Below are positions 2,288 through 31,610 of a stretch of 64,000 nucleotides of DNA, piece after piece. Each line of letters starts with the position of its first letter. Positions within the stretch are counted from its first letter, which is position 1. This stretch comes from Saprospiraceae bacterium. GTDB lineage: Bacteria; Bacteroidota; Bacteroidia; Chitinophagales; Saprospiraceae. The translations under genes and the position numbers were made by a program. The stretch is from positions 39,192 to 103,191 of the forward strand of contig JALHQW010000006.1 of NCBI GenBank assembly GCA_022841745.1. The letters run 5' to 3'. Under the pieces are notes generated by a model that ran no database searches, was not told the DNA's origin, and saw only the letters and a program-made list of their open reading frames with translations.

Positions 2288-2353
2288 CAAAGGTGAGGTA
2301 TTACACTGCTCAGAGGCTTATACAGTTATTGGGAATGCTTGCATAATTCACAT
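2288..2353 (-). promoter_or_regulatory. Shared two-box promoter (copy 1), upstream of the DUF3494 gene
   Basis: Read on the minus strand: TGTGAATTATGCAA, 15 nt, GTATAA (2323-2318), 26 nt, TTTG (2291-2288). The start codon lies 38 nt farther on. It has the same fixed spacings as eight other copies in the window. Confidence 0.8.
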
Positions 2354-2391
2354 ATTGTCGAAAATCGCTTCAGTCAGAGCGTTTGATGGTG

Positions 2392-2814
2392 CTAACGGTG
2401 AACGGCTTCGTAGTTGGCTTCCCGGATAGCTTTAAGCTCGGCACGAATCAATTTCCCAAGCTCCTTCGAGGTCAGCCCGAATTCGTCGCTTACCTGGCGG
2501 ATGGCCTTGCTCTCAAAAAATATTTGGTGCAAAAATGGGTATTGTTGAAAGGGGCTTGATGGCGTATCACTGCGTTTGGATTGGCTGCCCAGTAGATGGT
2601 GTGCTGTTTCCAGGGTGAGCCTGATGAGCGTCGCCAAAATGCAATGCTTCTTGTTTTCAACTATTTCCTGTTCATGTGCTTTTTCAAATGTGATGAGCAG
2701 GATTTGGGCTGCCGCATTATCTGTAGGGGCATTTTCCAACGCAATCCCATAAAGTATTGCGCCGTATTGGTCGTATAAATGGATAAGTGGTTGCGTGTAA
2801 TGGTCTGGTATCAT
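2392..2814 (-). CDS. Small sigma-like protein downstream of an ECF sigma factor
   Basis: 140 residues. The N-terminal half (LYDQYGAILYGIALENA, then a helix with ITFEKAHEQ) has the look of sigma-70 region 2. The C-terminus (about 108-133, AIRQVSDEFGLTSKELGKLI) resembles a region-4 helix-turn-helix. The family is not recognised firmly. It starts 23 nt after the ECF gene at 2838-3359, so the two are probably co-transcribed. It could be a degenerate sigma factor, a sigma partner or a regulator. The interaction is inferred from position and from the resemblance only. Confidence 0.6.
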   Translation of the reverse strand: MIPDHYTQPLIHLYDQYGAILYGIALENAPTDNAAAQILLITFEKAHEQEIVENKKHCILATLIRLTLETAHHLLGSQSKRSDTPSSPFQQYPFLHQIFFESKAIRQVSDEFGLTSKELGKLIRAELKAIREANYEAVHR

Positions 2815-2837
2815 TTATTTGTTTATTGAACGCCATA

Positions 2838-3359
2838 CTAAGCGTATTGGACGTGCTCGCCATAATGCCTCTGAATGACAGCCTTCAATTTTTTTCGGGC
2901 AAGAAAGATGCGGCTCTTGACGGTGCCCAATGGAACGTCGAGCTGCTCGGCGATTTCCTGGTAGCCAAAGCCGTCGAAGTGCATCTCGAAAGGGATGCGG
3001 GTTGCCTCTGACAAGGTGTTTAATATACTCCGAAGTTCCTTCATCATGATGACCGTACTGCCCAAGTTTTTGACTGGCTGCTCCAGCACACCCTTCATAT
3101 TTTCCTCCATCCAAAATACTACCTTGCCCCGTGACCGCTGCTTGCGGTATTCGTTGATATAGCAATTCTGCATGATGGTGTAAAGCCATCCCTTGAAGTT
3201 GGTGCCCTCCGTGAACTTGTGGCAATTGGCAAAGGCGCGGAGTATTGTCTCTTGCACCAGGTCTTTGGCGTTTTGCTTGTTGATTGTAAAGCGAAATGCG
3301 ACGCTAAAGATGCTGCCGTTCAATGCTAAAAGCTGTTTGTTGAATTCCTCGGTAGTCAT
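2838..3359 (-). CDS. ECF-type RNA polymerase sigma factor (first of two)
   Basis: 173 residues, normal ECF length. Region 2 covers roughly residues 10-80, with NAKDLVQETILRAF, FKGWLYTIMQNCYINEYRK and basic residues behind it. Region 4 (about 113-160) has GYQEIAEQLDVPLGTVKSR, a typical HTH. No anti-sigma gene follows; a small sigma-like protein does. It is the probable end of a unit running 5096 to 2392 (small acidic/basic protein, SDR, flavin reductase, sigma, sigma-like protein) and lies downstream of promoter copy 5136-5201. It is a paralogue of the gene at 8435-8986, sharing the INEYRK and GTVKSRIF segments and the HYG near the C-terminus. Confidence 0.9.
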   Translation of the reverse strand: MTTEEFNKQLLALNGSIFSVAFRFTINKQNAKDLVQETILRAFANCHKFTEGTNFKGWLYTIMQNCYINEYRKQRSRGKVVFWMEENMKGVLEQPVKNLGSTVIMMKELRSILNTLSEATRIPFEMHFDGFGYQEIAEQLDVPLGTVKSRIFLARKKLKAVIQRHYGEHVQYA

Positions 3360-3423
3360 GCTGAAAAATTTTGTTGCTACGGCAAGGTGTCGTGCTGTAA
3401 ATTGAAATTAGATAGTAAGGCCC

Positions 3424-3987
3424 TCAGTCTTCAGGTTTTTTGTTTGATGCCACGCTTTCCAACAATTTCTTCAGGAAGACATGGGCCAATTTGTCGGTGG
3501 CAGCCTTGTCGGCAGGTGCGCCATTTTCTTCAAAAGCCTTTTGCACCCTCGGTATCGGGAATATACTGGTTACCGTCCACGCCCCGATTTTCCATAGTAT
3601 AAATTGCAACTGCACCAACACTTGGGAGCCACCAAAATCCCCTGCCGAAGCCGTGCAAATGGAGATGGGCTTGCCGTGCCACTCCTCGTACAATAGGTCA
3701 ATGGCGTTTTTCAGGCTGGCAGGGTAGCCGCCGTTGTACTCGGGCGTCACGATGATGATACCGTCCGACTTTTTGATTTTATCGGCAAAGTCGAGCACCT
3801 GTATTGAAGGGTCTTTTTGTGCCTTCAGCTTGTCCTCAAAAATTGGAAAGTTGTATACTTTCAGGTCAAGGATTTCAGCTTCCGCCAGTTTACCTTCCGT
3901 CAAGTAATTTTGGAAATACAAGGCGGCACGATGACTGTTCCGGCCCGTTCTTACGCTGGCTGAAATGATTGAAATACGTGGCATCAT
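3424..3987 (-). CDS. NADPH-dependent FMN reductase family protein
   Basis: 187 residues with a flavodoxin-like fold: the N-terminal strand ISIISASVRTGRNS begins the FMN phosphate loop, and TPEYNGGYPASLKNAID (81-97) is the family's signature segment. Members reduce FMN, quinones, azo dyes or chromate with NAD(P)H in the cytoplasm; the substrate here cannot be read. It lies 23 nt downstream of the SDR gene, so co-transcription and a joint redox-stress role are likely. Two adjacent ATGs (3987 and 3984) could serve as start. Confidence 0.88.
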   Translation of the reverse strand: MMPRISIISASVRTGRNSHRAALYFQNYLTEGKLAEAEILDLKVYNFPIFEDKLKAQKDPSIQVLDFADKIKKSDGIIIVTPEYNGGYPASLKNAIDLLYEEWHGKPISICTASAGDFGGSQVLVQLQFILWKIGAWTVTSIFPIPRVQKAFEENGAPADKAATDKLAHVFLKKLLESVASNKKPED

Positions 3988-4010
3988 GGTGTTTGTTTTT
4001 TATAAAAAAA

Positions 4011-4772
4011 TCACAGCGCCAAATACCCACCATCTATTTCGATGGCAGTACCCGACACGAAGGAGCTGTCGCCACAAGCCAAGAAGATAAAACCGCTGGC
4101 GATTTCCTCGGCCCTGCCCAGCCGTTTCATAGGGTGCAGTTCAATAATGTGCTGCTTTACATCCGTATGGTCGCTGATGCCTCCTTTCGCCAGCAGGGGC
4201 GTATCAATAAAGCCCGGACAAATGGCGTTCACCCGAATCCCTTCCGTCGCATACTCCAGGGCGGCGGTCTGCGTCAGCCCGATGACGCCGTGCTTTGCCG
4301 CCACATAGTGCGAGGAAGTGGCGAAGCCGACTCTTCCCAATATGGAAGCCATGTTCACGATGACGCCGTTATGTTGTTTCGCCATCTGCGCCAGCTCGTG
4401 CCTCATGCAGTTGAACACGCCGTTCAGGTTGACGCCGATGACCTTTAGCCATGCCTGTTCCGTCATGTCGCCGACCTTGTTAGGCTCGCCGCCGATGCCC
4501 GCATTGTTCAGCGCAACGTCGAGGGAGCCGAAGGTACTGACGGTTTTCTCGATGGCGGATTCCACTTGGGCAAAAACGGAAACATCGCATTCGATGAAAA
4601 TGGCTTTGTTGTTCTCCTGCAGGATGTCCTGCATGGCCTCTTCGACATCAACTGGCTTCATATCTGCAACGGCAATATTGGCGCCTTCTCTTGCTGCTGC
4701 GATGGCGCATGCCTTGCCAATGCCAGACAACCCTCCCGTGATGAACACAGTCTTATGTTCTAACTTTTTCAT
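4011..4772 (-). CDS. Short-chain dehydrogenase/reductase (classical SDR)
   Basis: 253 residues, the usual length. The cofactor motif TGGLSGIG sits at 12-19, NNAG at 89-92, and the catalytic Ser/Tyr/Lys at about S143, Y156 and K160 (YVAAK). The C-terminal DGGYLAL ending is typical of the 3-oxoacyl-ACP reductase/glucose 1-dehydrogenase-like group. An acidic D37 after the second strand suggests NAD(H) rather than NADP(H), which is inference. It is the second gene of the unit starting at 5096; the substrate is unknown. Confidence 0.92.
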   Translation of the reverse strand: MKKLEHKTVFITGGLSGIGKACAIAAAREGANIAVADMKPVDVEEAMQDILQENNKAIFIECDVSVFAQVESAIEKTVSTFGSLDVALNNAGIGGEPNKVGDMTEQAWLKVIGVNLNGVFNCMRHELAQMAKQHNGVIVNMASILGRVGFATSSHYVAAKHGVIGLTQTAALEYATEGIRVNAICPGFIDTPLLAKGGISDHTDVKQHIIELHPMKRLGRAEEIASGFIFLACGDSSFVSGTAIEIDGGYLAL

Positions 4773-4793
4773 ACTGGACTCTTTGAGCGGTAC

Positions 4794-5096
4794 TTAATTG
4801 TCTGTGATTGCATGCTTGCTACTTGCTGGCACTTCCCATGAATCGGAACTATCAATCGGCGTTATGCTGCCAGCGGGATTTTTTGCTTGGTTCCAACCGC
4901 CTTCATCGTTAGCCGGGGGGTGTAATAATCTTATCACTGCGTCAGTTTTTTTAACTGGTGTTTCCATCGGGGGCAATTCCTTATTGGTTAAATTGGCTTT
5001 CAGTTTGGGGTCATAAAGCCTGAAGATTTTCCCTTCAAAATCTTCGTTGATTTTCTTGTCGTCCTTTGGTTCGCTGTCTTTTTTATCCTTTTTCAT
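4794..5096 (-). CDS. Hypothetical small charged protein
   Basis: 100 residues, not recognised. The N-terminus is Lys/Asp-rich (KKDKKDSEPKDDKK), followed by a Pro- and Asp-rich stretch with no signal peptide or membrane segment, so it is probably disordered and cytoplasmic. The gene is supported by its place as first gene of the unit, its 21-nt gap to the SDR gene, and a regulon promoter whose TTTG lies 39 nt before the ATG. Confidence 0.6.
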   Translation of the reverse strand: MKKDKKDSEPKDDKKINEDFEGKIFRLYDPKLKANLTNKELPPMETPVKKTDAVIRLLHPPANDEGGWNQAKNPAGSITPIDSSDSWEVPASSKHAITDN

Positions 5097-5135
5097 AGGT
5101 TAGTTATTAAATTTGGTGAAAACATTTTCACCCGA

Positions 5136-5201
5136 CAAAAATCCTTAGATATACCTGTCAAAGCATTGTATAAAGTTTGAAATAAATTGCATCATTCCCA
5201 C
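5136..5201 (-). promoter_or_regulatory. Shared two-box promoter (copy 2), upstream of the 100-residue protein/SDR/flavin reductase/ECF unit
   Basis: Minus strand: TGGGAATGATGCAA, 15 nt, ATACAA (5171-5166), 26 nt, TTTG (5139-5136). The start codon of the first gene is 39 nt downstream. Confidence 0.75.
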
Positions 5202-5218
5202 ATTTATGCTTAAGCGCA

Positions 5219-6721: not shown

Positions 6722-7318
6722 TTAAAACTTAAACCCCAACGACACCTGGCCGACGGCGCTTTTCCCTTCGCCCAAGAACGGCCGACCCTTGTCGTTGGTA
6801 ATGTCCACCAAGCCTTGGTTGTACCGGATGCCAACCGTGATGGGTGCGAAATTGTAGCTCAACCCAGCGGTAAGCCCAACGTCAGTCTTCTTAAAAGCGT
6901 CCACAACGACCTCCGTAGTGTCAAATAACTTATAATCCGGTTTGGAAATCAAGTAGGAAGCGAAGGGCCCCACCTGCACGTCAATGCTGCCAAGCCGGAA
7001 CGCCACCGGCAAGAGGAAGTCAATGTATTTCAGGTCCAGCGTCTTGCGGTCGCCAAGGAACTCAAAGGCAGCGCCTTTCAGCGAGTAGCTCAATTCGGGC
7101 TGCAGGTAAATAAAATCAAGCATAATTGGGATGTCCGCAAATATGCCAACGTGATAACCAAACCTTTCGCCCCGGTCAGGCAGCTTGTCGAAGGAAATAT
7201 TGGTGACGTTCAAGCCACCACGTATGCCGAATTTGGCTTGCGCCTGGATGCTGGCAGCAGGCAAAAAAATCAGAATAAATGCCGTCAAAATTGCGGCGTT
7301 GAAATATTTGAGTTTCAT
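6722..7318 (-). CDS. Outer-membrane beta-barrel (porin-family) protein
   Basis: 198 residues from the ATG at 7318; a TTG at 7324 would add two residues. The signal peptide ends near SIQAQA. The mature part begins KFGIRGGLNVTNISFD and alternates amphipathic strands up to a C-terminal VSLGFKF, the terminal phenylalanine expected for BAM insertion. This fits the small eight-stranded OMP_b-brl_2/PorT-like group of Bacteroidota. The ligand is unknown. It lies after OmpA-family gene 7508-8203, with two hairpins between them. Confidence 0.82.
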   Translation of the reverse strand: MKLKYFNAAILTAFILIFLPAASIQAQAKFGIRGGLNVTNISFDKLPDRGERFGYHVGIFADIPIMLDFIYLQPELSYSLKGAAFEFLGDRKTLDLKYIDFLLPVAFRLGSIDVQVGPFASYLISKPDYKLFDTTEVVVDAFKKTDVGLTAGLSYNFAPITVGIRYNQGLVDITNDKGRPFLGEGKSAVGQVSLGFKF

Positions 7319-7346
7319 AAACAATTAGATTTAAAATGTTGAAAAA

Positions 7347-7507: not shown

Positions 7508-8203
7508 TCAATTCCCCAGCTCTGCCTTCGCCTCCGCCTTCATTTTATCATTTGCATAGATGGCGATTTCAACCCGCCGGTTTTGTGAGCGGCTAATTTC
7601 GCTATCGTTGGAAACGGCAGGCTGGCTTTCGCCCTTGCCTACGGTGCTCAGGCGGCTGTTTTTGACGCCGGCATCGGAAAGCTGGGAAGACACCGCCGCC
7701 GCCCGTTTCCGGGACAGGGTTTTATTGAAGGAATTGGAGCCTGTGTTGTCCGTATGCCCGACGATGAGCAGCTCCGTTTCCGGGTAATCAATCAATGTTT
7801 GCGCCAATTTGCGCAGGTCATCCTTGTTGCCTTGCTTTAAGTCTGACTTGCCGAAATCGAACAACAATTGGCTGTCGAAGGTCAGTTTGATGCCTTCGCC
7901 GACCCGCTCCACGGTAGCCGTATTCCCCAAATCCTCCTCCATTCTTTGGGCCTGCTTGTCCATCCTATTACCGATGACCGCCCCAACTGCACCGCCCGCC
8001 ACTGCGCCAAAAATGGCACCAAGGGCAGTGTTGTTTTTTTTGTTGCCAATCATTCCACCTACCACGGCACCGGATGCAGCACCAACGACAGCGCCTTTTT
8101 CGGTCTTGTTCATACCGGATTTATCGCCTGTTTTTTGCGCGCTTTTGCAAGCACCCAATAAAGCGATGGAGACCATCATCAAGAGAATTATTCTGTTCCT
8201 CAT
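7508..8203 (-). CDS. OmpA-family lipoprotein with glycine-zipper region
   Basis: 231 residues. The lipoprotein signal ends at Cys19 (LLGAC). Residues 36-83 are a Gly/Ala-rich zipper (VVGAASGAVVGGMIGN and GAVAGGAVGAVIGNRMD), as in YiaD/YMGG proteins. Residues 105-215 are an OmpA C-terminal peptidoglycan-binding domain: FDFGKSDL, VGHTDNTGSN, LSRKRAAAV, RSQNRRVEI. It probably anchors the outer membrane to peptidoglycan. It stands behind promoter copy 8234-8299, with a hairpin directly after the stop. Confidence 0.92.
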   Translation of the reverse strand: MRNRIILLMMVSIALLGACKSAQKTGDKSGMNKTEKGAVVGAASGAVVGGMIGNKKNNTALGAIFGAVAGGAVGAVIGNRMDKQAQRMEEDLGNTATVERVGEGIKLTFDSQLLFDFGKSDLKQGNKDDLRKLAQTLIDYPETELLIVGHTDNTGSNSFNKTLSRKRAAAVSSQLSDAGVKNSRLSTVGKGESQPAVSNDSEISRSQNRRVEIAIYANDKMKAEAKAELGN

Positions 8204-8233: not shown

Positions 8234-8299
8234 TAAAGGTCAGCCCTATTGCTGAGTCAGACGTTATACCGTTTTTAAAATAGTTTGCATTATTCCCAG
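8234..8299 (-). promoter_or_regulatory. Shared two-box promoter (copy 3), upstream of the OmpA-family gene
   Basis: Minus strand: TGGGAATAATGCAA, 15 nt, GTATAA (8269-8264), 26 nt, TTTA (8237-8234) where the other copies have TTTG. The start codon is 30 nt downstream. Confidence 0.72.
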
Positions 8300-8434: not shown

Positions 8435-8986
8435 CTAAGCAAACATGGCTTGGTGGCCATAATGCCCTTGCACTATGTTTTGCAGTTTTTTACGGGCAAA
8501 AAAGATGCGGCTCTTTACGGTTCCCAACGGGATGTCGAGCTGCTCCGCTATTTCCAGGTAGCCAAAGCCATTGAAGTGCAGCTCGAACGGGATACGGTTT
8601 GCAGCGCTCATGTTGTTGAGCATGATGCGCAGTTCCTTCATCATGATGATGGTACCAGCATCGTTGCGCACGGCCTGCTTCACGGCAACCTCGGAATTGT
8701 CTTCCAGCGGCTGCTCCACTTGGTTGCGGGTGCGGCGCTTGCGGTATTCGTTGATAAAACAGTTGCGCATGATAGTGGAGGTCCAAGCCTTGAAATTGGT
8801 GCCCTCTTCGAAACGCTCCATGCTGGCGAAAGCCCGCATGACGGTTTCTTGGTAAAGGTCATTTGCGTCTTCACGATTATTGTTGTTCAATTTCATAGCG
8901 AAGGCAAAAAGAAGACCCTGGATTTGTGTGAGGCTGTGATTGAATTTCAACGTTGTCATGCTATCGTTTTTAATTGTTATTTTCAT
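8435..8986 (-). CDS. ECF-type RNA polymerase sigma factor (second of two)
   Basis: 183 residues from the ATG at 8986; an internal ATG at 8959 (MTTLKFNHS) matches the paralogue's start better and may be the true one. Region 2 has EDANDLYQETVMRAF and FKAWTSTIMRNCFINEYRK; region 4 has GYLEIAEQLDIPLGTVKSR. No anti-sigma gene is adjacent. The leader from the promoter copy 9154-9219 is long (about 160 nt). It is a paralogue of 2838-3359. Confidence 0.9.
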   Translation of the reverse strand: MKITIKNDSMTTLKFNHSLTQIQGLLFAFAMKLNNNNREDANDLYQETVMRAFASMERFEEGTNFKAWTSTIMRNCFINEYRKRRTRNQVEQPLEDNSEVAVKQAVRNDAGTIIMMKELRIMLNNMSAANRIPFELHFNGFGYLEIAEQLDIPLGTVKSRIFFARKKLQNIVQGHYGHQAMFA

Positions 8987-9153: not shown

Positions 9154-9219
9154 CAAAGGTCGGTATCGTTGCTGGGCTGGCCGTTACAAGGATTTTAAAA
9201 ATAATTGCATTATTCTCAC
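9154..9219 (-). promoter_or_regulatory. Shared two-box promoter (copy 4), upstream of the second ECF gene
   Basis: Minus strand: TGAGAATAATGCAA, 15 nt, TTGTAA (9189-9184), 26 nt, TTTG (9157-9154). The upstream end overlaps the stop region of the receiver gene. The nearest start codon is 167 nt downstream. Confidence 0.7.
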
Positions 9220-9584
9220 ATAATTTCCGTCCATTTTTTGGCGACTTCCAACAGTTTGCTCAAATCAAACGGCTTGACGAGATAATCGTCAGCACCCAAC
9301 GAAAGTGCTTCCGTCTTGTCAATCTTCTCCGACAATGAAGTGCTGAAAACAAAGGGGATTTCCGTCGTTTTGTCCGAACTCCTTATCAATTTCAATACCT
9401 CGAAGCCATCCATATCCGCCATCAAAGCATCGCAAATAATTAAATCAGGGCTGATTTCAATGGCAAGCGATACCCCACCCTTCCCGTTGTCGGCGGCGTG
9501 AACCTCGTAGCCCTGCATTTCCAAATACTCCGTGAAATTTTCAAGAATCTCCGGGGTGTCTTCAATCAGCAGTATTTTTTTCAT
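9216..9584 (-). CDS. Stand-alone response-regulator receiver (CheY-like)
   Basis: 122 residues, one REC domain and nothing else. The acidic pair is E8/D9, the phosphoacceptor is D52 (IICDALMADMDG), the switch Thr/Ser is near T82, and Lys104 lies in LVKPF. With no output domain it must act through a partner such as a kinase, phosphorelay or sigma regulator. No histidine kinase is in the window. It sits between promoter copies 9711-9776 (upstream) and 9154-9219 (downstream, driving ECF), which invites but does not prove a signalling link to that sigma factor. Confidence 0.93.
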   Translation of the reverse strand: MKKILLIEDTPEILENFTEYLEMQGYEVHAADNGKGGVSLAIEISPDLIICDALMADMDGFEVLKLIRSSDKTTEIPFVFSTSLSEKIDKTEALSLGADDYLVKPFDLSKLLEVAKKWTEIM

Positions 9585-9710: not shown

Positions 9711-9776
9711 CAAAATTGGGTTGCTTTACGGAATGGGATATTACACCATTCTTGGAAATGATTGCATAATTAGCAT
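9711..9776 (-). promoter_or_regulatory. Shared two-box promoter (copy 5), upstream of the receiver gene
   Basis: Minus strand: a degenerate first box ATGCTAATTATGCAA, 15 nt, GTGTAA (9746-9741), 26 nt, TTTG (9714-9711). The receiver ATG is 126 nt downstream. Confidence 0.65.
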
Positions 9777-9791: not shown

Positions 9792-10949
9792 TTAAAACGC
9801 CTTCCCATGGGTCAGCCCAATGAGTTTCTGGGTTAATGCCGGGAAATAATGCAGCGTTTTTAATGCCAAGTGGGTACTTGTTTTCCTGCCCAAAAGATGC
9901 TGGATGTATTGCCCTGCTTGGATGCGGCGGTTGAAAGATAACGCCCAAGCACGCCCATATTGGCTTTTAAGCGCTTTTTGGGTACATTTCCCCTCGAAAT
10001 ACAACTGCAATAAATCAGCTAAAAGCTTGGAAGCCCGCATTGCCATGCTCATTCCGTTGCCGCAAAGTGGCGTAATCGCTCCTGCTGCATCACCGACCAT
10101 TAGCATACCGTTAAAGGAGGTGCCTTTGGGGTAAAAATAGATATTGCTTATCACCAGCGGTTTTTCAAATAGAAACGTGGATTGGGTCAAATATTTTTTT
10201 AGAAAGGGATTTTCACACAATATGGTATGCTCCATCGCTTTTATATCATTCCCCGATTGCTTCAAATTGGAGGCTTTTGACAAATAACACAAGCAATAAC
10301 GCTCGTTGTCCACTTTTAAAATACCACAATAGCCATCCTTGAAATTGTGCAATTCAATGCGATTTGGAACAAGGTCGGTTTGAATATGGTATTTCACACC
10401 GATATAGTTGGGATGCTTTGTCGGCGTTTCAACAGGGGAAGTGGCAAAATTAGGCGTGTATTTTCCATAGCTGCCACAGACGATTTGCGCTTGGTACGGG
10501 CCTTGTGCTGTCGTAATTTCGCTCAGCTTTTCTTCGATATTTTGAACATCCAACACCTTGCAATTTTCAAGTACGACAACACCTTTTGCACGGGCCATTT
10601 GACACAGTAGATGGTCCAAACTATGCCGACTGATGCCGAACCCGCCCAAAGGCAAACGACTGTTGAGCATGAACCCATTTTCAGAGGAAATGCCCAATTC
10701 CGTGATTTTTGGCAATTGGAGGTCATGCAATGGGACGCCTAACCCGGTTAAAAAGTCCCAACTTTCCATTGAAATATACTCTCCACAGACCTTGTGTTGC
10801 GGGTACCTATTCTTTTCAAATAAAATGACTTCAACGCCTTGTTCCGCCAATTGAATGGCGAGGCACAAGCCGCCCAAACCACCACCCACAATGGCGCATT
10901 GGAATATTTTATTCGATGACGTGGGTATCCCCATAGATGATGATTTCAT
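9792..10949 (-). CDS. FAD-dependent oxidoreductase of the polyketide cluster (geranylgeranyl-reductase/monooxygenase type)
   Basis: About 385 residues from the ATG at 10949. A GTG at 10991 and an ATG at 10934 are alternatives, and the Rossmann motif VGGGLGGLCLAIQLAEQG lies close enough for the shortest. GDAAGAITPLCGNGMSMAM near the C-terminus is the second FAD contact of this class. Its 5' end overlaps the methyltransferase stop (10909), so it is in the same operon. It probably oxidises or reduces the polyketide product; the substrate is unknown. It is the last gene before the receiver gene. Confidence 0.85.
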   Translation of the reverse strand: MKSSSMGIPTSSNKIFQCAIVGGGLGGLCLAIQLAEQGVEVILFEKNRYPQHKVCGEYISMESWDFLTGLGVPLHDLQLPKITELGISSENGFMLNSRLPLGGFGISRHSLDHLLCQMARAKGVVVLENCKVLDVQNIEEKLSEITTAQGPYQAQIVCGSYGKYTPNFATSPVETPTKHPNYIGVKYHIQTDLVPNRIELHNFKDGYCGILKVDNERYCLCYLSKASNLKQSGNDIKAMEHTILCENPFLKKYLTQSTFLFEKPLVISNIYFYPKGTSFNGMLMVGDAAGAITPLCGNGMSMAMRASKLLADLLQLYFEGKCTQKALKSQYGRAWALSFNRRIQAGQYIQHLLGRKTSTHLALKTLHYFPALTQKLIGLTHGKAF

Positions 10950-11613
10950 GTCTAAATGCCCATTTGTTTTTAATGGTGAAATGTGTCGCACCTGCCTTGT
11001 TGATGATAGCTACCCATTCTTTTTTCTTAAACCCACGGGCAACCGAAAGCGGAGCGTCGTTTTTCACCAAATGGGATTTTGAAAAAAGGGCAGTCAAGGT
11101 TTTAATGGAATAGTACGCAATCGGATTTCGTTCCAAATCGTTTATAATCAATATGATACGATTCTTTAAGGAGAACTCAATGAGTTCAATGAGTTGATTT
11201 TCGGTCAAGTGGTGACAAAACAAACAGGCGTGAATAATGTCAATATCTTGCACATGAAGAAACATGTTGCGGTAATCATCGCAGATATATTGGATGTCCT
11301 TTACAGGGTTTTGTTGTTTGGCATATTCGATGCAGACGGGCTTCAGGTCAATCCCGATGAGGTTCAAGCTAAGATTCTTGCGGATTTGCCATTTTTTGAT
11401 GTGCTTTAAAGTATCGCCACCGCCACAGCCAATGTCAATCAGGGTATAGGATTTTTTGGGCTGAATGATTTTCTTCAACGCTGAAAAAGTGATGTCGTAA
11501 CCGCCCAGGAGGGTATTTATCCGGTCCAATTCTTTGAGGGTCTGGAACAAATCAGCCGGCGGAATATCATCGGCATCTAAGTACTCTTTTTGATGGCTTC
11601 GGTATTTTAGCAT
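10909..11613 (-). CDS. Class I SAM-dependent methyltransferase
   Basis: 234 residues. The SAM-binding motif I is LIDIGCGGGDTLKHI, followed by the acidic end of the second strand in LIGIDLKP. The order in the operon (T3PKS, methyltransferase, FAD enzyme) matches many bacterial type III PKS clusters, in which such enzymes O- or C-methylate the phenolic or pyrone product. There are 13 nt between the PKS stop and this ATG. Confidence 0.88.
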   Translation of the reverse strand: MLKYRSHQKEYLDADDIPPADLFQTLKELDRINTLLGGYDITFSALKKIIQPKKSYTLIDIGCGGGDTLKHIKKWQIRKNLSLNLIGIDLKPVCIEYAKQQNPVKDIQYICDDYRNMFLHVQDIDIIHACLFCHHLTENQLIELIEFSLKNRIILIINDLERNPIAYYSIKTLTALFSKSHLVKNDAPLSVARGFKKKEWVAIINKAGATHFTIKNKWAFRHEIIIYGDTHVIE

Positions 11614-11626
11614 GGTTTATATGGGA

Positions 11627-12787
11627 TTAGACGTAATCGAGAATGTTATTTCCCGCTAATCTATTTAACCGCAAATTTTTCTCGGGCAGGACCAGCTTGC
11701 CGACTACGTTTAACTGCATCGTTTCAACGGTTAGCCCTGGGCCAAAAGCGACAGCAAACACGTTTTTATTGGTGGCATCTGGGCTTAAATCATCCAATAT
11801 TTGTTTCAAAACAAAAAGAACGGTAGGAGACGACATATTGCCATAATCTTTCAGGACTTTATAGGAAGCCTCCAAATCTGAGGGCAAAAGCCCCATTGCT
11901 GTGCTAAAATTCTCCACAATTTTTTTTCCGCCCGGGTGGACTGCCCAGTAGTCAATTTCAGTTTTATCCAAGCCCATATTGTCAAACATTTGCTTGATAT
12001 TGCCTTTAATCAAATCGGCAACGTAGGAAGTTAGGTGCATAATAAACCCTGTTTCGGACAGTTGCCATGCCATCTCGTTGTGGCTGTCGGGGATACAAAA
12101 CGAATCGAAACCCGTTATTTCCGTGTTTTTACCAAGCGGGGCTTTATCGGGAACACTACTTACCAAAACAGCGGCGCTTCCGTCGGCGAAAAGAAGGTTG
12201 GACAGTAAATAATCCTCGCTATAATTGGTTTGAAAATGGAGGGTGCAAAGTTCTGTACACACCACCAAAACTTTGGCATTTTCGTGGCTGTTGCATATAT
12301 CATCGGCTTGTTTCAAGGCAATTATGGCGGCGTTGCAGCCTAAAAAATTGACGCTGCTCCTGTGTGTCGAGGGGGACAGGTCCAGGGCGTGTATCAACTC
12401 AATATCCAAGCCGGGCGCAAACAAACCTGTGCAGGTGACGGTGATGATATGTGTGATGCTGTCTTTTTCTTTCTCAAAATTGGGCAGGTTGCCAATGGCT
12501 TTTAAAGACAATTTCAGCGCTTCTTTTTTGAAGACAACCATGCGCTCAGACAGCGAGGGCGTTGGCAGAAGGGTTTTGTTTTTCGGAAAAAACGTAAAGT
12601 CTTCCAATGTCAATCCATAATCTTTTAGCACCGAATACCGGGTGGAAATACCTGATTTCGAAGCCAACAGCTTGATTTTTCGCTTGGCAGTTTCATCATC
12701 GGTGGTGTCGCTGTAAAACTGCATGAGTGCGCCTTGGTCATACGCATAATCGGGTACGGCAGTGGCTATTTTAACGATAAAGCTCAT
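11627..12787 (-). CDS. Type III polyketide synthase (chalcone/stilbene synthase family)
   Basis: 386 residues, family length. The catalytic triad can be placed: Cys119 in VTCTGLFAPGLD, His284 in WAVHPGG and Asn317 in YGNMSSPTV. GFDSF at about 226-230 is also conserved. Such enzymes condense malonyl-CoA on an acyl-CoA starter to give resorcinols, pyrones or naphthols. The starter and number of extensions cannot be read. Its start overlaps the UbiA stop by 4 nt (ATGA), so the two are translationally coupled. Confidence 0.95.
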   Translation of the reverse strand: MSFIVKIATAVPDYAYDQGALMQFYSDTTDDETAKRKIKLLASKSGISTRYSVLKDYGLTLEDFTFFPKNKTLLPTPSLSERMVVFKKEALKLSLKAIGNLPNFEKEKDSITHIITVTCTGLFAPGLDIELIHALDLSPSTHRSSVNFLGCNAAIIALKQADDICNSHENAKVLVVCTELCTLHFQTNYSEDYLLSNLLFADGSAAVLVSSVPDKAPLGKNTEITGFDSFCIPDSHNEMAWQLSETGFIMHLTSYVADLIKGNIKQMFDNMGLDKTEIDYWAVHPGGKKIVENFSTAMGLLPSDLEASYKVLKDYGNMSSPTVLFVLKQILDDLSPDATNKNVFAVAFGPGLTVETMQLNVVGKLVLPEKNLRLNRLAGNNILDYV

Positions 12788-13659
12788 TGGTAACTATTTT
12801 TTAGCAGTAAAACAGCAAAGCATGCATTCATGCAAAATGCAGCAATCAGGTTCAACAGCATGGTATTTTTGAAATTGGCATTTACCTCGTTTTTTAAGAC
12901 CAATGAAAACCAATAGACAAAGAACACAAGAATCGGAATAAAGAAAAGCTGAAGAATATAGAAGCTATTGAGTTGATTAATCTTGTCAAAATACAGGAAG
13001 TAGCAGACATTGCACAAAAGAAACATTGCGCCCGAAAATAGGAATGTGCCGTTGTATCCCAATTTATAGCTTATCGTGACCACCCCATCCGCCAAATCTT
13101 GTTGGTGCTGATAAATTTGCGTCAAAGGATACACGCCTCCAATTTGGAAAGAACAAGCTGCCAATATCCAAATCGTTGTGCCATTTACGTCCAAAAACGC
13201 CTTTGCGATGCCCAAATGGGATATATAATAAGTAAAAGCTCCCTGAAAAAATATGACCACCAGAAACCCGATTATGGGATATTTTTTCAACCGAATTTGC
13301 CTTGAACTATACGCCCTCGATGCCAAAATATATGGCACCAAACAAAGCGAAAAGGGGATGCTGACCAAGAATGCACCGCCAATAATAGCGGCGAAATCCA
13401 TCACCAAAGTCAAATAAAACAGCTGTTCAGTCGGCATTGGCGGCCTTTCCAAAATACCAATGCTGTGCTCGTCCCTATCCACATAACTGTTGTAACCATT
13501 GCTGGCAGGATAAACCAAAAGATGAATGATGAGGAATGGGTATAAAACATCAAGCCATGTGAAAGGCGTATTTATTTGACTCAATGCCAGCAGAAAAATG
13601 GGCATCAACAGCAATGAAAATGGCAAACGGAGCAACTTTATTGTGTTTTTGTCCAGCAT
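12784..13659 (-). CDS. UbiA-family membrane prenyltransferase
   Basis: 291 residues with about eight or nine membrane segments. The first Asp-rich motif is in NGYNSYVDRDEHSIG; the second is weaker, QHQQDLADG. UbiA enzymes transfer prenyl groups to aromatic acceptors, so a prenylated T3PKS product (meroterpenoid) is a reasonable inference. The region between the motifs has the usual YSSRQIRLKKYP loop. It overlaps the PKS gene and lies 55 nt downstream of the hydrolase. Confidence 0.85.
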   Translation of the reverse strand: MLDKNTIKLLRLPFSLLLMPIFLLALSQINTPFTWLDVLYPFLIIHLLVYPASNGYNSYVDRDEHSIGILERPPMPTEQLFYLTLVMDFAAIIGGAFLVSIPFSLCLVPYILASRAYSSRQIRLKKYPIIGFLVVIFFQGAFTYYISHLGIAKAFLDVNGTTIWILAACSFQIGGVYPLTQIYQHQQDLADGVVTISYKLGYNGTFLFSGAMFLLCNVCYFLYFDKINQLNSFYILQLFFIPILVFFVYWFSLVLKNEVNANFKNTMLLNLIAAFCMNACFAVLLLKNSYQ

Positions 13660-14603: not shown

Positions 14604-14915
14604 TTACATTTTACAAGCCTCCGCACATTTCCGGCACGCCTCGGCGCAGGTCTTGCAGCAGTCGGAATGTTCGGCGTGCTTGCCACATTCGGTGGCACAT
14701 GCTTCGCAGCATTTCACGCAGAGGGCGCACAGCGCATCGGCGAACTGCGAATCCCGTGCGCACAACCTGGCGCAGAGCGCACAGATGTCGGCGCAGTCAC
14801 GGCAGGTTTTCACGCAGGCTTCGTGCCCGCTCATGGTCAGGCACTCGGTGGTGCATCTTTCGCATTCGATGACACAAGCGAGGCAGGCATCTATGCAGTC
14901 TTGGCGGTCTTTCAT
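14604..14915 (-). CDS. Four-helix-bundle copper-storage protein (Csp family)
   Basis: 103 residues with 24 cysteines spaced as CxxxC and CxxC along four helices (for example CLACVIECERC and CALCVKCCEAC), plus His residues near 80-83. This is the Csp/DUF326 signature; members bind many Cu(I) ions in the bundle core. It has no signal peptide, so it is cytosolic like Csp3. It stands behind promoter copy 14954-15019 and next to a multicopper oxidase, supporting a copper-handling role. Confidence 0.93.
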   Translation of the reverse strand: MKDRQDCIDACLACVIECERCTTECLTMSGHEACVKTCRDCADICALCARLCARDSQFADALCALCVKCCEACATECGKHAEHSDCCKTCAEACRKCAEACKM

Positions 14916-14953: not shown

Positions 14954-15019
14954 CAAAGGAGCGGGATTAGGCAGTGGAAAGTGTTGCAAAAAGGCGGGGA
15001 ATATTTGCATCATTCCCAT
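14954..15019 (-). promoter_or_regulatory. Shared two-box promoter (copy 6), upstream of the copper-storage gene
   Basis: Minus strand: TGGGAATGATGCAA, 15 nt, TTGCAA (14989-14984), 26 nt, TTTG (14957-14954). The start codon is 38 nt downstream. If the hairpin at 14555 is read through, this promoter could also drive the polyketide genes. Confidence 0.75.
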
Positions 15020-21882: not shown

Positions 21883-22545
21883 CTAAAATTTATCTGGAAA
21901 CTGTAGGGCAATCCCTTCGGAAAGCATGTCTGACATCATCATCAACTCATCGTAAACCTTATCGTAGGCAACTACATCAGCGGCATAGTCCCCCGATAAA
22001 CGGGCAGTCGCTTCTTCCAAGGTCAAGTCCAAATGTGTCTTCATCATGGCCTTCCAGTCTGCAAGTTTCCAATTATCTGGATTGGCATCATTCAGGAAGG
22101 CGGCTATTTCGTCACCGTTCACGTACCAACTGACAAGGGCTGCATTGTATGCTGGTGTATTATCGTCCTTGGCGGCTGTAAGCAATTCAGCGGCAAGGAC
22201 AATATGTTCTTTGAGCAACACGGTCAGGGTGTCGCCGGCAGCATTGCCATAATAAGGTTTGATGGCTTCGCCCAAGTCCACTTGATTTTTCAGGAGGCGA
22301 TTGACGGCTTCCGTTGTTCCGGGCGCCCCATCCACGATGTTGATAATCACGTTGCGGGTCCATAGCGCATGGTCGCTCCACAATACGCGCATCTCAGCGT
22401 TTAGGGCCTGAAACTTTGCGCTGTCGAGCGGCGCATCGTCGTCTTTGTCGCAGCCCTGCATGGTGAAAAGCGCTACTGCCATTGCCAGCAGCAAGGTGGT
22501 TGTTTTCAGGATGCTTCGTTTTAGCATCTTTAATTTGTTCGACAT
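21883..22545 (-). CDS. Conserved helical lipoprotein of unknown function
   Basis: 220 residues with a lipoprotein signal ending at Cys32 (TMQGC). The rest is mainly helical, with WSDHALWTRNVIINIVDG, LKNQVDLGEAIKPYYG and EHIVLAAELLTAAK followed by a C-terminal SDMLSEGIALQFPDKF. I recall similar uncharacterised proteins in other phyla but no function. The regular helices and His/Glu/Asp pattern could form a four-helix bundle, which is inference. It has a regulon promoter 58 nt upstream and a hairpin after its stop. Confidence 0.7.
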   Translation of the reverse strand: MSNKLKMLKRSILKTTTLLLAMAVALFTMQGCDKDDDAPLDSAKFQALNAEMRVLWSDHALWTRNVIINIVDGAPGTTEAVNRLLKNQVDLGEAIKPYYGNAAGDTLTVLLKEHIVLAAELLTAAKDDNTPAYNAALVSWYVNGDEIAAFLNDANPDNWKLADWKAMMKTHLDLTLEEATARLSGDYAADVVAYDKVYDELMMMSDMLSEGIALQFPDKF

Positions 22546-22603: not shown

Positions 22604-22668
22604 CAAAGTTGGGTATGTTATAGCCTGAAAGCTTTATACTTTTCAGAAGGAGAATTACATCTTTCACA
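22604..22668 (-). promoter_or_regulatory. Shared two-box promoter (copy 7), upstream of the helical lipoprotein
   Basis: Minus strand: TGTGAAAGATGTAA, 15 nt, GTATAA (22639-22634), 26 nt, TTTG (22607-22604). The start codon is 58 nt downstream. Confidence 0.72.
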
Positions 22669-28367: not shown

Positions 28368-28553
28368 TTATATTTTTATCCGCTTCAAATAATCCATCAA
28401 ACCGAATACTTGTAACAGCCAAACGACAAGTATAATCACCACAACGGCATTGAGGATGTTCTTTATCTTGCGATCCATCGGGATATAGGTGTTCACCAGC
28501 CAAAGCAGGACGCCTACCACGATTAATACGATGATGATATTTAATAAAGGCAT
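28368..28553 (-). CDS. Thivi_2564-family small membrane protein
   Basis: 61 residues. Two hydrophobic helices flank the conserved NTYIPMDRKIKNILN centre, as in the Thivi_2564 family of short inner-membrane proteins, often found with DUF1003, YtxH and Lmo0937-type genes. No function is known. It runs into the DUF1003 gene (13 nt). Confidence 0.85.
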   Translation of the reverse strand: MPLLNIIIVLIVVGVLLWLVNTYIPMDRKIKNILNAVVVIILVVWLLQVFGLMDYLKRIKI

Positions 28554-28602
28554 GGATTTTTATTTAAGAAGCATTAATGGTTTGGAAAGATGGGGAAGGG
28601 GT

Positions 28603-28637
28603 GAGTTTCCGGTTTGTCATAGACAAGCCGGAAACTC
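28603..28637. terminator. 16-bp hairpin after the broken Lmo0937-like gene
   Basis: The arms 28603-28618 and 28622-28637 pair with one G-T mismatch around a 3-nt loop. It lies 25 nt past the end of the pseudogene and 50 nt before the Thivi_2564-like gene. Confidence 0.7.
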
Positions 28638-28662
28638 AATGCCAAAGTTTTGGCAATTATTT

Positions 28663-28818
28663 TCAAATGGGCTTTTTCCCTTGAATGACCCGCAGCAATA
28701 CAACGACTATCGCTATAACGAGCAGGAGATGGATAAGCCCTCCGGTGCCGAAACCGAAAAACCCAATGAGTCAACCAATGACGAGTATTACTGCAACGAT
28801 GTATAGTAAATTTCCCAT
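28663..28818 (-). pseudogene. Lmo0937-family small membrane protein broken by one TGA
   Basis: From the ATG at 28818 the frame reads MGNLLYIVAVILVIG, then TGA at codon 16 (28773-28771), then LIGFFGFGTGGLIHLLLVIA, then VVVLLRVIQGKKPI and TGA. Lmo0937 proteins have Trp at this position (TGG), so one G-to-A change makes the stop. All other residues fit the family. TGA is used as the normal stop elsewhere (for example the ATPase/oxidase ATGA overlap), so recoding is unlikely. A sequencing error is possible. Confidence 0.75.
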
Positions 28819-28881
28819 AATGAATCAATTATAATTGTGATAAATGATGGTACTTAGAGCTTAAAGGAATTTGCCCAAGAT

Positions 28882-29208
28882 TCAGAGCAAAATGACCAAT
28901 AAGATGATGATCAGCAGCAAAGTCCCCACCGAAATATAAACGCCTCCGTTGTTAATCGCATTAAGTTGTTTATTTATAGAGCGAACTTCCCTTCTCATTT
29001 CCCTGCGCTCCGCTGGGCGCAACGATGCCTTGTCTATCAAGGATAATTCGTCCAGCCTTGCCGTTAGGGTATTGACTACAGCTGTCTCAGCGATGGTTAT
29101 TGAGTCGGCTGCAACAGGATTTATGTCCAATGTTGCTGCATTTAACTGCACAGGAACAGCCAACAAAAGCAGGCTGAATGACATTAAGCAAATTGTTAGT
29201 TTTTTCAT
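28882..29208 (-). CDS. Secreted or inner-membrane small protein with C-terminal anchor
   Basis: 108 residues from the ATG at 29208. The signal peptide (MKKLTICLMSFSLLLLAVPV) is followed by a basic helical part (ERREMRREVRSINKQLNAIN) and a C-terminal hydrophobic helix (VGTLLLIIILLVILL). No family name is recognised, though this Gly-Val-Tyr-Ile-Ser plus helix ending is common in Bacteroidota. It has a regulon promoter 35 nt upstream. Confidence 0.65.
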   Translation of the reverse strand: MKKLTICLMSFSLLLLAVPVQLNAATLDINPVAADSITIAETAVVNTLTARLDELSLIDKASLRPAERREMRREVRSINKQLNAINNGGVYISVGTLLLIIILLVILL

Positions 29209-29243
29209 TTTTACATGTTTTTTGTGGGAACATTTCCACGGTA

Positions 29244-29308
29244 CAAATATGGGTATCATTGAAGCCCCCTATGTTATAAAAACCTTGGAATGGTTTGCAT
29301 ATTTCACA
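29244..29308 (-). promoter_or_regulatory. Shared two-box promoter (copy 8), upstream of the 108-residue protein
   Basis: Minus strand: TGTGAAATATGCAA, 15 nt, TTATAA (29279-29274), 26 nt, TTTG (29247-29244). The start codon is 35 nt downstream; the upstream end overlaps the stop of the permease-like gene. Confidence 0.72.
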
Positions 29309-29696
29309 GGTTCTTGGCCGCTTCTTCGGCCTGCCCTTCCAGTTCGGCGTATTCCCTCGACAGTATGTTAAGTTCGTGCTCGGTTTTGGACTCCACATTC
29401 AGTACCGCATTGCTGGCGGGTTCGTGGGAGGATACCAATTCATTTACCTTCAAACTCAACAGTGCTGAGAAGCGGCTGAAGGATTTTTGGATGATGAACA
29501 GGCTCAAAAACGTGACGCCGTGTATAATATCCCGAATGATGTCCCGGATATCCTGCGCATAAAAGTCCTTGTTCAGCACCCAATACAAGACCATACCCAT
29601 GGCGAGCAGGAACGTGATGGAATTGCCGAGCACTAAGGTGGCTGCAGTGGTGAGTTTTTCAAACCCCGTTTCTGCATGGCGGTATATTTTCTTCAT
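29304..29696 (-). CDS. Low-affinity iron permease-family protein
   Basis: 130 residues from the ATG at 29696, which overlaps the AI-2E stop (ATGA); a start at 29726 would add ten. Two membrane helices (GNSITFLLAMGMVLYWVL and IIHGVTFLSLFIIQKS) are followed by LSLKVNELVSSHEPASNAVL and a coiled C-terminus. The order matches the low-affinity Fe/Cu permease family. Transport has not been shown for most bacterial members. Confidence 0.75.
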   Translation of the reverse strand: MKKIYRHAETGFEKLTTAATLVLGNSITFLLAMGMVLYWVLNKDFYAQDIRDIIRDIIHGVTFLSLFIIQKSFSRFSALLSLKVNELVSSHEPASNAVLNVESKTEHELNILSREYAELEGQAEEAAKNL

Positions 29697-30829
29697 TTTT
29701 TTAGATTTTTTAGTGGATTTGTCCAAGGTATTTTTTTAGAAATTTCTTCGAAGTCCAATTTCAGTTCTACCAATGGGGGCATGGTGTCGCCCAATAAAAA
29801 ACCCCACGGCTTCAGGGGTTCGATGCGGTCAAGTAAAAGCTTGACGACAGCTGTAAGCGGTATGGCGAGGAACATGCCTGGAATGCCCCACAAGGCCGCT
29901 CCCGCTATGACTGTGATAAGCGATACCAAGGCATTTAGCTTTACTTTTGACCCGACTATTTTAGGTACAATATAGTTGTTGTCAATGAATTGAATAAAAG
30001 TGTACATCGCCAATACATAAAGCACATAAACCGGCGATTTTGTGACCAAGGCGATAATGGCGAACAAAAACATGGTGATGGCACCGCCGAGGTATGGTAT
30101 GACATTTAGGAAAGCACCGAGTATGCCAAGCAAGATGGCGTATTCAATGCGGAGTATCAATAGTCCGACGGAGTTCAGCACTGCAACGATGGCAATTTCT
30201 GCAAAAAGCCCGACGAGGTATCGCTGGATAATCGCCTTGGTTTCCGTCAGTATTTCATTTATTTTATGGTCATTTTTAGCGCCAAAAACCTGATGTATAA
30301 ACCCGATCAAATGGGGTTGGTAATAAGACAACATAAAGATATAAACCGGGGTTAAAAAAATGGTGGCCAATAAGCCGCCCATCGTGCTGAACGTCGTGCC
30401 GATGGCAGCACCGCTATTATTGATTAACTCCCCTTTTGTTTTTGCAATCCATTCATTAATAAGCTTTGTACTGATATTGGTAAACCCTGAAAACCAAGCG
30501 ATGGCTTGGTTGAACAAGGCTTGGATTCTATCCGCCAATTGCGGCAGCGCCGCTCCGAAACGGTCAGCCTGAAAGGAAACCAATGCAACGAGTATGAACA
30601 CAACCACAAAAGCGCCAACTAAAATGCCTAAGATGGCAATCCCACGGTTTACTTTCTTTTTCACCAAAAAACTAACCAATGGACTAATTAAAATGGCGAT
30701 GATCCCCGCATAAATCAATGGAAGGATAATGTCCTGCGCAATGGACAACATGCTGATGAAATAATACATGCCGATGAGCAGGAGGGAAGCCTTTACATAG
30801 AAAGGCAAGTGAATAGGCGGCTTGTTCAT
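29693..30829 (-). CDS. AI-2E-family transporter
   Basis: 378 residues with about eight membrane segments in the AI-2E arrangement: the N-terminal pair (SMLSIAQDIILPLIYAGIIA), a large loop with LINEWIAKTKGELIN, and the C-terminal block LGIPGMFLAIPLTAVVKLL. The family exports small molecules or sodium; the substrate is unknown. It is coupled to the downstream permease-like gene by ATGA. Confidence 0.9.
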   Translation of the reverse strand: MNKPPIHLPFYVKASLLLIGMYYFISMLSIAQDIILPLIYAGIIAILISPLVSFLVKKKVNRGIAILGILVGAFVVVFILVALVSFQADRFGAALPQLADRIQALFNQAIAWFSGFTNISTKLINEWIAKTKGELINNSGAAIGTTFSTMGGLLATIFLTPVYIFMLSYYQPHLIGFIHQVFGAKNDHKINEILTETKAIIQRYLVGLFAEIAIVAVLNSVGLLILRIEYAILLGILGAFLNVIPYLGGAITMFLFAIIALVTKSPVYVLYVLAMYTFIQFIDNNYIVPKIVGSKVKLNALVSLITVIAGAALWGIPGMFLAIPLTAVVKLLLDRIEPLKPWGFLLGDTMPPLVELKLDFEEISKKIPWTNPLKNLKK

Positions 30830-30864
30830 GTCAATGGTTAGAATCGCTTTTTTCTAATTGGTTT

Positions 30865-31173
30865 TTACCGGCCCAATGGATGCCCCTGATTAGGTTCAAA
30901 ACGCCAAACCGCCACTAATAAATAAAATGCTGCCACGATAAAAAAAACATAGTGGCTTTTGCCGAGCAAATCTCCCAGCAGCAGCGCAATACCGATATTG
31001 AAAACAAGTGCAAACATGGAACCCGCCAAGATGACGCTCAAGCGTGTTATCAACGAAGTCGCCACGATGGTAGTAGTCTCCAAAGCTTTGAGCTTCTCAA
31101 GTTCGAAGGCCGTTTTGCCGTACGGCGCTGCGCTGTCCAATAGGGTTTCCATCAAATTGGTTGGAGTTTCCAT
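30865..31173 (-). CDS. Holin-III-like small membrane protein
   Basis: 102 residues. A short N-terminal helix (LLDSAAPYGKTAFELEKLKAL) precedes two membrane helices (about 47-68 and 72-90). This resembles Phage_holin_3_6 domain proteins common beside YtxH genes in non-phage settings. No phage genes are near, so a holin function is not implied. It starts 29 nt after the YtxH gene. Confidence 0.7.
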   Translation of the reverse strand: METPTNLMETLLDSAAPYGKTAFELEKLKALETTTIVATSLITRLSVILAGSMFALVFNIGIALLLGDLLGKSHYVFFIVAAFYLLVAVWRFEPNQGHPLGR

Positions 31174-31202
31174 ATTTACAGTTATTTTTTCGGCTATGCC
31201 GT

Positions 31203-31502
31203 TCAGTTCAGGGGAAGTGTCTCCTTATTGGTGGTACTTGTCAATTTGGCTTGTACTTCTTCCACCTTTGCTTTGCCATTCTCCGCCATAAGTACAGCCT
31301 CCTTTTTCATTTTTTCGAACTTGCTGCTTACGCTGTCAATGAAGTCGTTGAATTTTTCGCCCAAGTCATCCACGTAGTCATTTCCTTTTCTGGAAATTTT
31401 ATGGCGGGTTTTAGCACCCTTGTAAGGAGCGAACAAAATGCCCAATGTAGCGCCGGCGGCAGCGCCAGCCATTATGGCTAGAAATACTTTTCCTGCATTC
31501 AT
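31203..31502 (-). CDS. YtxH-domain protein
   Basis: 99 residues from the ATG at 31502. The Gly/Ala helix VFLAIMAGAAAGATLGILFAP and YKGAKTRHKI are the YtxH signature; the remainder is a charged amphipathic helix. YtxH proteins are general-stress proteins in Firmicutes, with unclear function. It is the first gene of the unit, with a regulon promoter 42 nt upstream. Confidence 0.88.
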   Translation of the reverse strand: MNAGKVFLAIMAGAAAGATLGILFAPYKGAKTRHKISRKGNDYVDDLGEKFNDFIDSVSSKFEKMKKEAVLMAENGKAKVEEVQAKLTSTTNKETLPLN

Positions 31503-31544
31503 GATTATTGCTTTTTGATTGTGATTTGGAAAATTTCCAGAATG

Positions 31545-31610
31545 CAAAGGTGGGTGTTTCGACTGCGGCGAGCGTTATACGGTTATGGCAAAAGGTTGCA
31601 TGATTCACAC
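31545..31610 (-). promoter_or_regulatory. Shared two-box promoter (copy 9), upstream of YtxH
   Basis: Minus strand: TGTGAATCATGCAA, 15 nt, GTATAA (31580-31575), 26 nt, TTTG (31548-31545). The start codon is 42 nt downstream. This is one of the best copies. Confidence 0.8.

Follow-up and report, generated by a model that had tools for sequence, protein, structure and literature searches.

A rigid two-box promoter repeated across a 44-kb island of a Saprospiraceae genome, and its putative HMA-AraC regulator

The DNA considered here is a 64,000-nt stretch of contig JALHQW010000006.1 (C6) of a Saprospiraceae bacterium, hereafter the window, which corresponds to C6:39192-103191 in a genome (G000) of 8,428,107 bases (8.43 Mb) and 178 contigs. 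On its minus strand, a first-pass annotation had picked out nine copies of one promoter architecture, consisting of a first box, 15 nt, a second box, 26 nt and the letters TTTG; below, we describe these sites, their distribution in this and related genomes, and an AraC-family gene nearby that may act on them. Written as a search pattern, the element reads TGNGAATNATGCAA-N15-RTRYAA-N26-TTTG, spanning 65 nt with 22 defined letters, and it is represented in addition by a profile, R1, built from 64 sites. The nine sites and the genes behind them are as follows, in window coordinates, with the number of pattern letters matched and with Pfam named where it supplied the assignment (ORF, open reading frame).

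2288..2352, minus strand: site 1 (box 1, 15 nt, box 2, 26 nt, TTTG), 22/22, R1 E 3.5e-10; behind it an ice-binding-like DUF3494/HYR surface protein, whose ORF runs leftwards from 2249 off the window edge (Pfam Ice_binding 4.7e-44)
2268..2283, minus strand: inverted repeat GTGAAAATTATTTCAC, beginning where transcription from site 1 is predicted to start
5136..5200, minus strand: site 2, 22/22, upstream of ORF 4794-5096; the run continues with an SDR protein 4011-4772, an FMN reductase 3424-3987, an ECF sigma factor 2838-3359 and ORF 2392-2814 (Pfam), which from the gene spacing would form one transcript
8234..8298, minus strand: site 3, the single TTTA variant, 21/22; behind it a glycine-zipper OmpA lipoprotein 7508-8203 and a beta-barrel protein 6722-7324 (Pfam)
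9154..9218, minus strand: site 4, 21/22, upstream of an ECF sigma factor 8435-8986 (Pfam)
9711..9775, minus strand: site 5, 21/22, upstream of a single-domain receiver 9216-9584 (Pfam Response_reg)
14954..15018, minus strand: site 6, 21/22, upstream of a cysteine-rich, copper-storage-like protein 14604-14915
22604..22668, minus strand: site 7, 20/22, upstream of a helical lipoprotein 21883-22545, for which the Pfam search gave no match
29244..29308, minus strand: site 8, 20/22, upstream of a small membrane protein 28882-29208
31545..31609, minus strand: site 9, 22/22, R1 E 2.7e-12, the best R1 score in the genome; behind it a YtxH protein 31203-31502, ORF 30865-31173 and an AI-2E transporter-family protein 29693-30829 (Pfam)

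The spacings of 15 and 26 nt are exact in all nine copies, and only the boxes are alike, the spacers differing from copy to copy. When the whole window is scored with the pattern, the nine copies reach 20 to 22 of the 22 letters, the next best places reach 16, and the best score in ten windows simulated with a second-order Markov model is 17 (9 places), so that the nine rigid units stand clear of chance at the positions first given for them. The lengths first given do not stand: with a unit of 65 nt, most of the original intervals were 1 nt too long (2288-2352 is the correct span of site 1, for example).

The boxes had been described as direct repeats two helical turns apart, which is borne out, the repeat being longer than originally noted: GAATnaTGTAAC in the first box recurs as AATTgTGTAAC in the second, 21 bp away. 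In a matrix built from 42 sites of G000 and two relatives, G125 and G107, which reads AATGTGTGAATnATGTAACTtTT...AATTGTGTAACgCtt...CAcCTTTG, the self-similarity of the columns is 3.82 at offset 21, against 1.13 for the next best offset between 5 and 44. The 3' element was assessed in 164 sites that were found by their boxes alone in named loci outside the matrix training set. TTTR follows at 26 nt in 119 of these, at 25 nt in 27 and at 27 nt in 1, with none within 24-28 nt in the remaining 17; thus, exact as it is in the window, the 26-nt distance is not invariant, relatives having 25 or 26 nt (146/164). AnnTTTR is present in 140 of the 164 sites and the full TAnnTTTR in 14, and at spacing 26 the first base of the box is C in 77, G in 28, T in 11 and A in 3. 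In line with the earlier proposal, TTTG would belong to a housekeeping -7 box, in the form of a weak box, (C/G)AnnTTTG, whose leading T is mostly replaced and which lies 25-26 nt past the boxes; no -33 TTTG element was seen at the sites. In Flavobacterium psychrophilum, a TAnnTTTG -7 box is placed at -12 to -5 in the excerpts of PMC9723704, which would set the transcription start about 5 nt past TTTG and the proximal half-site in the -35 region. Half-sites about two turns apart over the predicted -35 region, the arrangement expected of an AraC-type activator, are found in the sequence.

At a genome-wide scale, the pattern matches 11 places with at most 2 mismatches and none with exactly 3 (the reversed pattern, used as a control, matches 1), and all 11 lie on the minus strand of C6 between 26644 and 70800. 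A search with R1 returns 12 sites at E ≤ 6.1e-6, all within the same 44-kb stretch; it adds C6:28484, which together with C6:26644 and C6:35157 lies to the left of the window. A thirteenth R1 match is partial (E 0.012) and is located on another contig, C20, directly after a second AraC-family gene discussed below. The same site density at random places in the genome, named at the outset as a result that would speak against a regulon, was not found. With 12 promoters in 44 kb and none as good elsewhere, the regulon is an island, and it lacks the spread over the genome that was looked for as the mark of a sigma-type regulon; the notion of a genome-wide stress regulon is not borne out in that form, the word "stress" having come from gene content only. 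Copies that are clustered and all on one strand could also be what is left of a mobile or repeat element that multiplied recently, a reading that we find scarcely credible given that the spacers differ and that sites in G125 lie on both strands, before other genes.

The first-pass annotation had placed the regulator outside the window. A candidate is indeed recognisable 4.1 kb to the left, where a small AraC-family gene on C6 (Met at 35113, stop at 34556) has a site of its own, C6:35157, 43 nt before the Met. The protein, here called C6 AraC, has 185 residues from the Met and 192 from a TTG 7 codons upstream (35134), and the TTG is the more likely start (L037:14557-15135 = C6:34556-35134), as the extra residues are conserved family-wide. 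Its C-terminus is a double helix-turn-helix (Pfam HTH_18, PF12833, 1.8e-17; PF00165, 9.5e-9); a Foldseek search with the full-length model returns AraC-type domains at probability 1.00, and matches to the DNA-binding domain by sequence or fold are PDB 6swi, 3lsg and 2k9s. Two genes behind it (L037:8616-14485) may provide signal input: one for a CheB/CheR-PAS histidine kinase (about 1812 residues) that includes a receiver domain, the other for a separate receiver. G125 and G018 have relatives of C6 AraC within or close to their site clusters, and G000 itself encodes two paralogs (C20:27358-28088 and C41:35092-35949; both of the CxxC type described below), each directly before an HMA gene (C20:27999 and C41:35788, respectively).

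To follow site and AraC gene through relatives, 150 genomes of the family and 296 genomes of the phylum were surveyed, with E thresholds of 1e-3 for the site and 1e-25 for the AraC. In the family, pattern matches are many in a few genomes, chiefly G125, G107, G105 and G120, and the AraC is present in 28 of 29 genomes with a site versus 27 of 121 without (p 5e-14); the corresponding figures for the phylum are 48/49 versus 94/247 (p 1e-16). Grouped by closeness of their AraC, closest first, genomes have sites in 18/22, 11/18, 9/28, 6/53 and 4/21 cases, compared with 1/154 where no AraC was found, and all 17 genomes with three or more sites have the AraC. We also examined 80 named loci picked for the AraC, nearly all from Bacteroidota or its groups (one is from Ignavibacteria and one from a Limnohabitans bin). 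Their 871,464 bases hold 178 sites at ≥14 bits, against 0 for the reversed matrix; 74 of the 80 loci have at least one site, and in 40 a site lies within 400 nt upstream of the AraC gene. The Limnohabitans locus (L109; Pseudomonadota) groups with Flavobacterium rows and is probably a misbinned contig.

The same survey bears on a quite different reading, in which the boxes would be the -35 and -10 elements (ATGYAA, 15 nt, GTRTAA) of an ECF sigma factor, probably one encoded in the island, and TTTG a feature of the untranslated leader. Both island ECF genes are themselves behind sites, and 15-16 nt is an ECF-like -35/-10 spacer. Relatives of the island ECF factors, searched at E 1e-35 (a threshold of our own choosing), are present in 36 of the 296 genomes and in 15 of the 49 with sites (Fisher p 1e-4). 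However, this leaves 34 of the 49 site genomes without such an ECF factor, and only 4 of the 17 site-rich genomes have one; moreover, -35/-10 pairs do not consist of one sequence repeated at 21 bp, as the boxes do, and the distance to AnnTTTR is fixed. We therefore hold ECF recognition of the boxes to be very improbable.

The AraC family itself divides into two branches that differ in where the site lies. Among 126 distinct AraC proteins from the fetched loci, position 3 is Ser in 97 (SxxC) and Cys in 27 (CxxC), two proteins with A or T falling outside these counts; Cys6 is present in 120 of 120 unfiltered rows, and in 126 of 126 rows of a set for which the filter demanded it. A site adjoins 85 of the 124 SxxC and CxxC genes (0 with the reversed matrix). 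For CxxC genes, it is upstream in 0 of 27 and just after the stop in 19, often starting 12 nt before the stop codon, whereas 41 of the 97 SxxC genes have it upstream and 26 downstream (reversed matrix, 0). An alignment, A3, took in 79 of 85 usable AraC stretches; translations with stops (L091 and L113) were dropped. In a maximum-likelihood tree, one change over 84 rows accounts for the before/after state of the site: it lies before the gene in an SxxC clade of 63 rows that includes the G000 protein, and after it in a 35-row SxxC clade and in the CxxC rows. Six loci (L054, L073, L098, L104, L107 and L114) carry tandem pairs with one gene from each SxxC clade. Given a midpoint root and a bootstrap that had yet to stabilise, we only infer a direction from CxxC to SxxC. 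By regular expression, an HMA gene comes next after 6 of 25 CxxC genes with enough flank versus 0 of 96 SxxC genes (p 5e-5), and in a few CxxC-type members a site precedes HMA genes.

The earlier idea of one regulon, with an activator reading the repeats, is probably right. Some other DNA-binding protein might nevertheless read the sites, for example a response regulator of the LytTR or OmpR type that partners the island kinase, with the AraC as a fellow-traveller. LytTR proteins also use 21-bp direct repeats, and the kinase and receiver stand right behind the AraC gene, but the receivers that were checked have no DNA-binding domain, the flanks of the site-adjoining AraC genes otherwise differ, and the position of the site follows the AraC tree. 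We rate such a reader as highly unlikely.

Turning to the N-terminal part of the protein, the frame stays open above the Met for 7 codons, which encode a conserved (L/M)K(L/I)YIK(Y/N), and TTG, ATG or GTG comes first in 114 of 126 cases; this extension would supply the first strand of an HMA domain. The resemblance to HMA domains (CopZ and the N- and C-terminal domains of CopA; PF00403) extends to the alpha-beta-beta-alpha order, to M-x-(C/S)-x-x-C in the same place and to the location of CxxC paralogs before HMA genes; unlike these domains, the AraC proteins carry a fused AraC DNA-binding domain, and in C6 AraC the first Cys is Ser. With hhalign, using a template made in-house from 11 HMA segments, all rows together match HMA at 94.0% and the CxxC rows at 97.0% (E 1e-10). 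Pfam HMA on the N-terminus of the paralog at C41:35092 scores 23.1 bits, below the cut-off of 24.8, and the top Foldseek match of the N-terminal model is the C-terminal metal-binding domain of CopA (TM 0.68, E 0.043; none at E ≤ 0.001). On this evidence the family appears to be an HMA-AraC family whose N-terminal ~60 residues are HMA-like (copper chaperone fold), and an HMA origin of the SxxC branch is suggested because it is kin to the CxxC members. Both cysteines of the CxxC metal ligand pair are present in 27 of the 126 rows; C6 AraC and 96 other SxxC rows lack the first, and with its replacement by Ser, classical two-Cys copper binding is not expected in C6 AraC.

Building on the computed sites, their spacing, their confinement to the island, their linkage to the AraC family and the HMA kinship of that family, we consider it very probable that the nine copies are target promoters of C6 AraC, acting as an autoregulated class II activator with an HMA-derived sensor. 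The binding, activation, dimerization and signal of C6 AraC are what we infer from sequence. An AraC dimer, or two monomers, would occupy the half-sites; if TTTG ends the -7 box (-8 to -5), the core of the proximal half-site would fall at about -40 to -35, with the distal core at about -61 to -56, allowing AraC to touch housekeeping RNA polymerase as a class II activator does. Although conserved, the core promoter seems weak, with the first T of TAnnTTTG changed to C or G and no -33 TTTG, and would for this reason depend on an activator. The site before the regulator's own gene would provide positive autoregulation. The N-terminal part would go back to an HMA domain, the metal-binding domain of CopZ and CopA, with Ser in place of the first Cys of CxxC, and the Cys that was kept may sense metal, redox or thiol stress. 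As output, the 44-kb island would supply envelope, surface, copper/redox and signalling functions.

Several observations weigh against this interpretation. Two genomes, G126 (81% complete) and G337, have sites as exceptions to the co-occurrence, and G337, a complete genome, has no AraC even at E 1e-8; conversely, 4 of the 22 genomes with a close AraC have no sites at E 1e-3, and G160 and G165, with 8 sites each, have only a distant AraC (E ~1e-39 to 1e-41). An adjacent site is missing in 31 of 97 SxxC and 8 of 27 CxxC genes. The 80 loci were picked for the AraC, so that their site density is biased; the family and phylum counts above, which start from the sites, were made for that reason. Of 107 listed sites outside G000, at least 49 have a listed AraC gene no more than 50 kb away. 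As for the HMA domain, SxxC rows alone do not match significantly with hhalign (3.1%, E 0.014), a Pfam search of C6 AraC gave no HMA match, CopZ came no higher than fourth of six, with E 0.57, in a PDB sequence search, the 50 Foldseek matches listed for the full-length model contain only AraC DNA-binding domains, and the N-terminal model is of low confidence (pLDDT 63.3).

The genes behind the sites appear, from their content, to be envelope and stress genes. In addition to the targets listed above, the island includes, left of the window, the run headed by the regulator gene, an ORF of 56 residues and a lipoprotein; in G125, sites precede YtxH, OmpA, catalase-like, Dps-like, copper ATPase-like and BON-like genes (named by eye). 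Among loci L053-L132, 157 first genes follow sites scoring ≥20 (9 further sites have no ORF behind them); leaving out 37 AraC genes, the 120 others give in Pfam Ice_binding 15, Big_5 10, CsbD 7, outer-membrane barrels 6 and 5, cupin 6, HisKA 4, YtxH 2, receiver 2, ferritin 1 and OmpA 1. Islands that hold the SxxC branch with upstream sites seem to abound in DUF3494, CsbD, YtxH and outer-membrane genes.

In the island itself, the DUF3494 protein with HYR repeats is very long and spans the left edge of the window (window 1-2249 plus L037:15373-19968). The two island ECF genes are 56% identical, a further gene closely related to them lies at C4:184217 (E 5e-90), and no anti-sigma gene was recognised beside either of the two. 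The copper-storage reading of protein 14604-14915 comes from its Cys pattern; Pfam DUF326 is barely above its cut-off (20.6 versus 20.4 bits). Positions 9792-13659 hold a type III polyketide synthase (11627-12787) and a UbiA prenyltransferase (12784-13659; both Pfam), with methyltransferase-like and oxidoreductase-like genes, all of which might possibly be driven from site 6 at 14954. A small protein resembling, by eye, that at 28882-29208 sits behind a site in a relative (L050:248-589).

Inverted repeats similar to that of site 1 follow sites 2, 6, 7, 8 and 9; such repeats, for example GTGAAAATTCATTCAC, lie just past TTTG of the sites at 2288, 5136, 14954, 22604, 29244 and 31545, and also at L037:6645 and 8485. 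The exact form TTTGN4GTGAAAATN3TTCAC has 5 copies in the genome, all at island sites, and with up to 3 mismatches the same pattern matches 45 places versus 24 for the reversed control. The repeats may be either a second operator or a 5' hairpin. An RNA hairpin as a general feature of the class was rejected, stems of at least 6 being only mildly enriched (34% of 163 sites versus 21% in shuffles).

E. coli AraC acts at araI1-I2, and the system described here resembles AraC/XylS activators in its C-terminal double helix-turn-helix, in its direct-repeat half-sites 21 bp apart with the proximal one at the -35 region, and in a gene near its targets; it differs in an HMA-like N-terminus instead of the arabinose-binding cupin, in the Bacteroidota -7 box and in an island of separate promoters. 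Sigma-S and sigma-B govern general stress regulons with overlapping kinds of genes, and CsbD, YtxH, Dps/ferritin, OmpA and catalase recur behind the sites in relatives; unlike those regulons, this one would be run by an activator rather than a sigma factor, and in G000 it is confined to one island. The SM1-SM6 promoter classes of Flavobacterium psychrophilum have a TAnnTTTG -7 box, to which the weak box here is comparable; the excerpts of PMC9723704 present sigma-factor motifs only, and its main text does not contain the word AraC. In the literature searched, at the level of listings, we found no description of this promoter class with an HMA-AraC regulator. Neither AraC activators nor HMA domains are new in themselves; the novelty here is that the two are joined, that the sites are laid out in this way and that an island is covered.

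The promoter class is real and phylum-wide in the Bacteroidota, has a very likely regulator and is undescribed as far as our searches show. For protective genes of many Bacteroidota, a regulator family can now be named and the site modelled precisely. The tree would offer a concrete path by which a regulator of local, copper-type scope could have turned into an autoregulated one in charge of an island, by way of Cys to Ser at position 3 and one move of the site. More speculatively, and with a good deal of doubt, a copper-type HMA-AraC that lost a Cys, used the single remaining Cys as a redox, thiol or metal gate and gained autoregulation might have become a phylum-wide stress switch and the master of protective islands (ice-binding-like adhesins, CsbD, YtxH, OmpA, Dps), taking on part of the work of sigma-S and sigma-B. 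To our knowledge, Bacteroidota are without the usual stress sigma factors, and how stress genes are controlled in such a phylum would now become a directly testable question.

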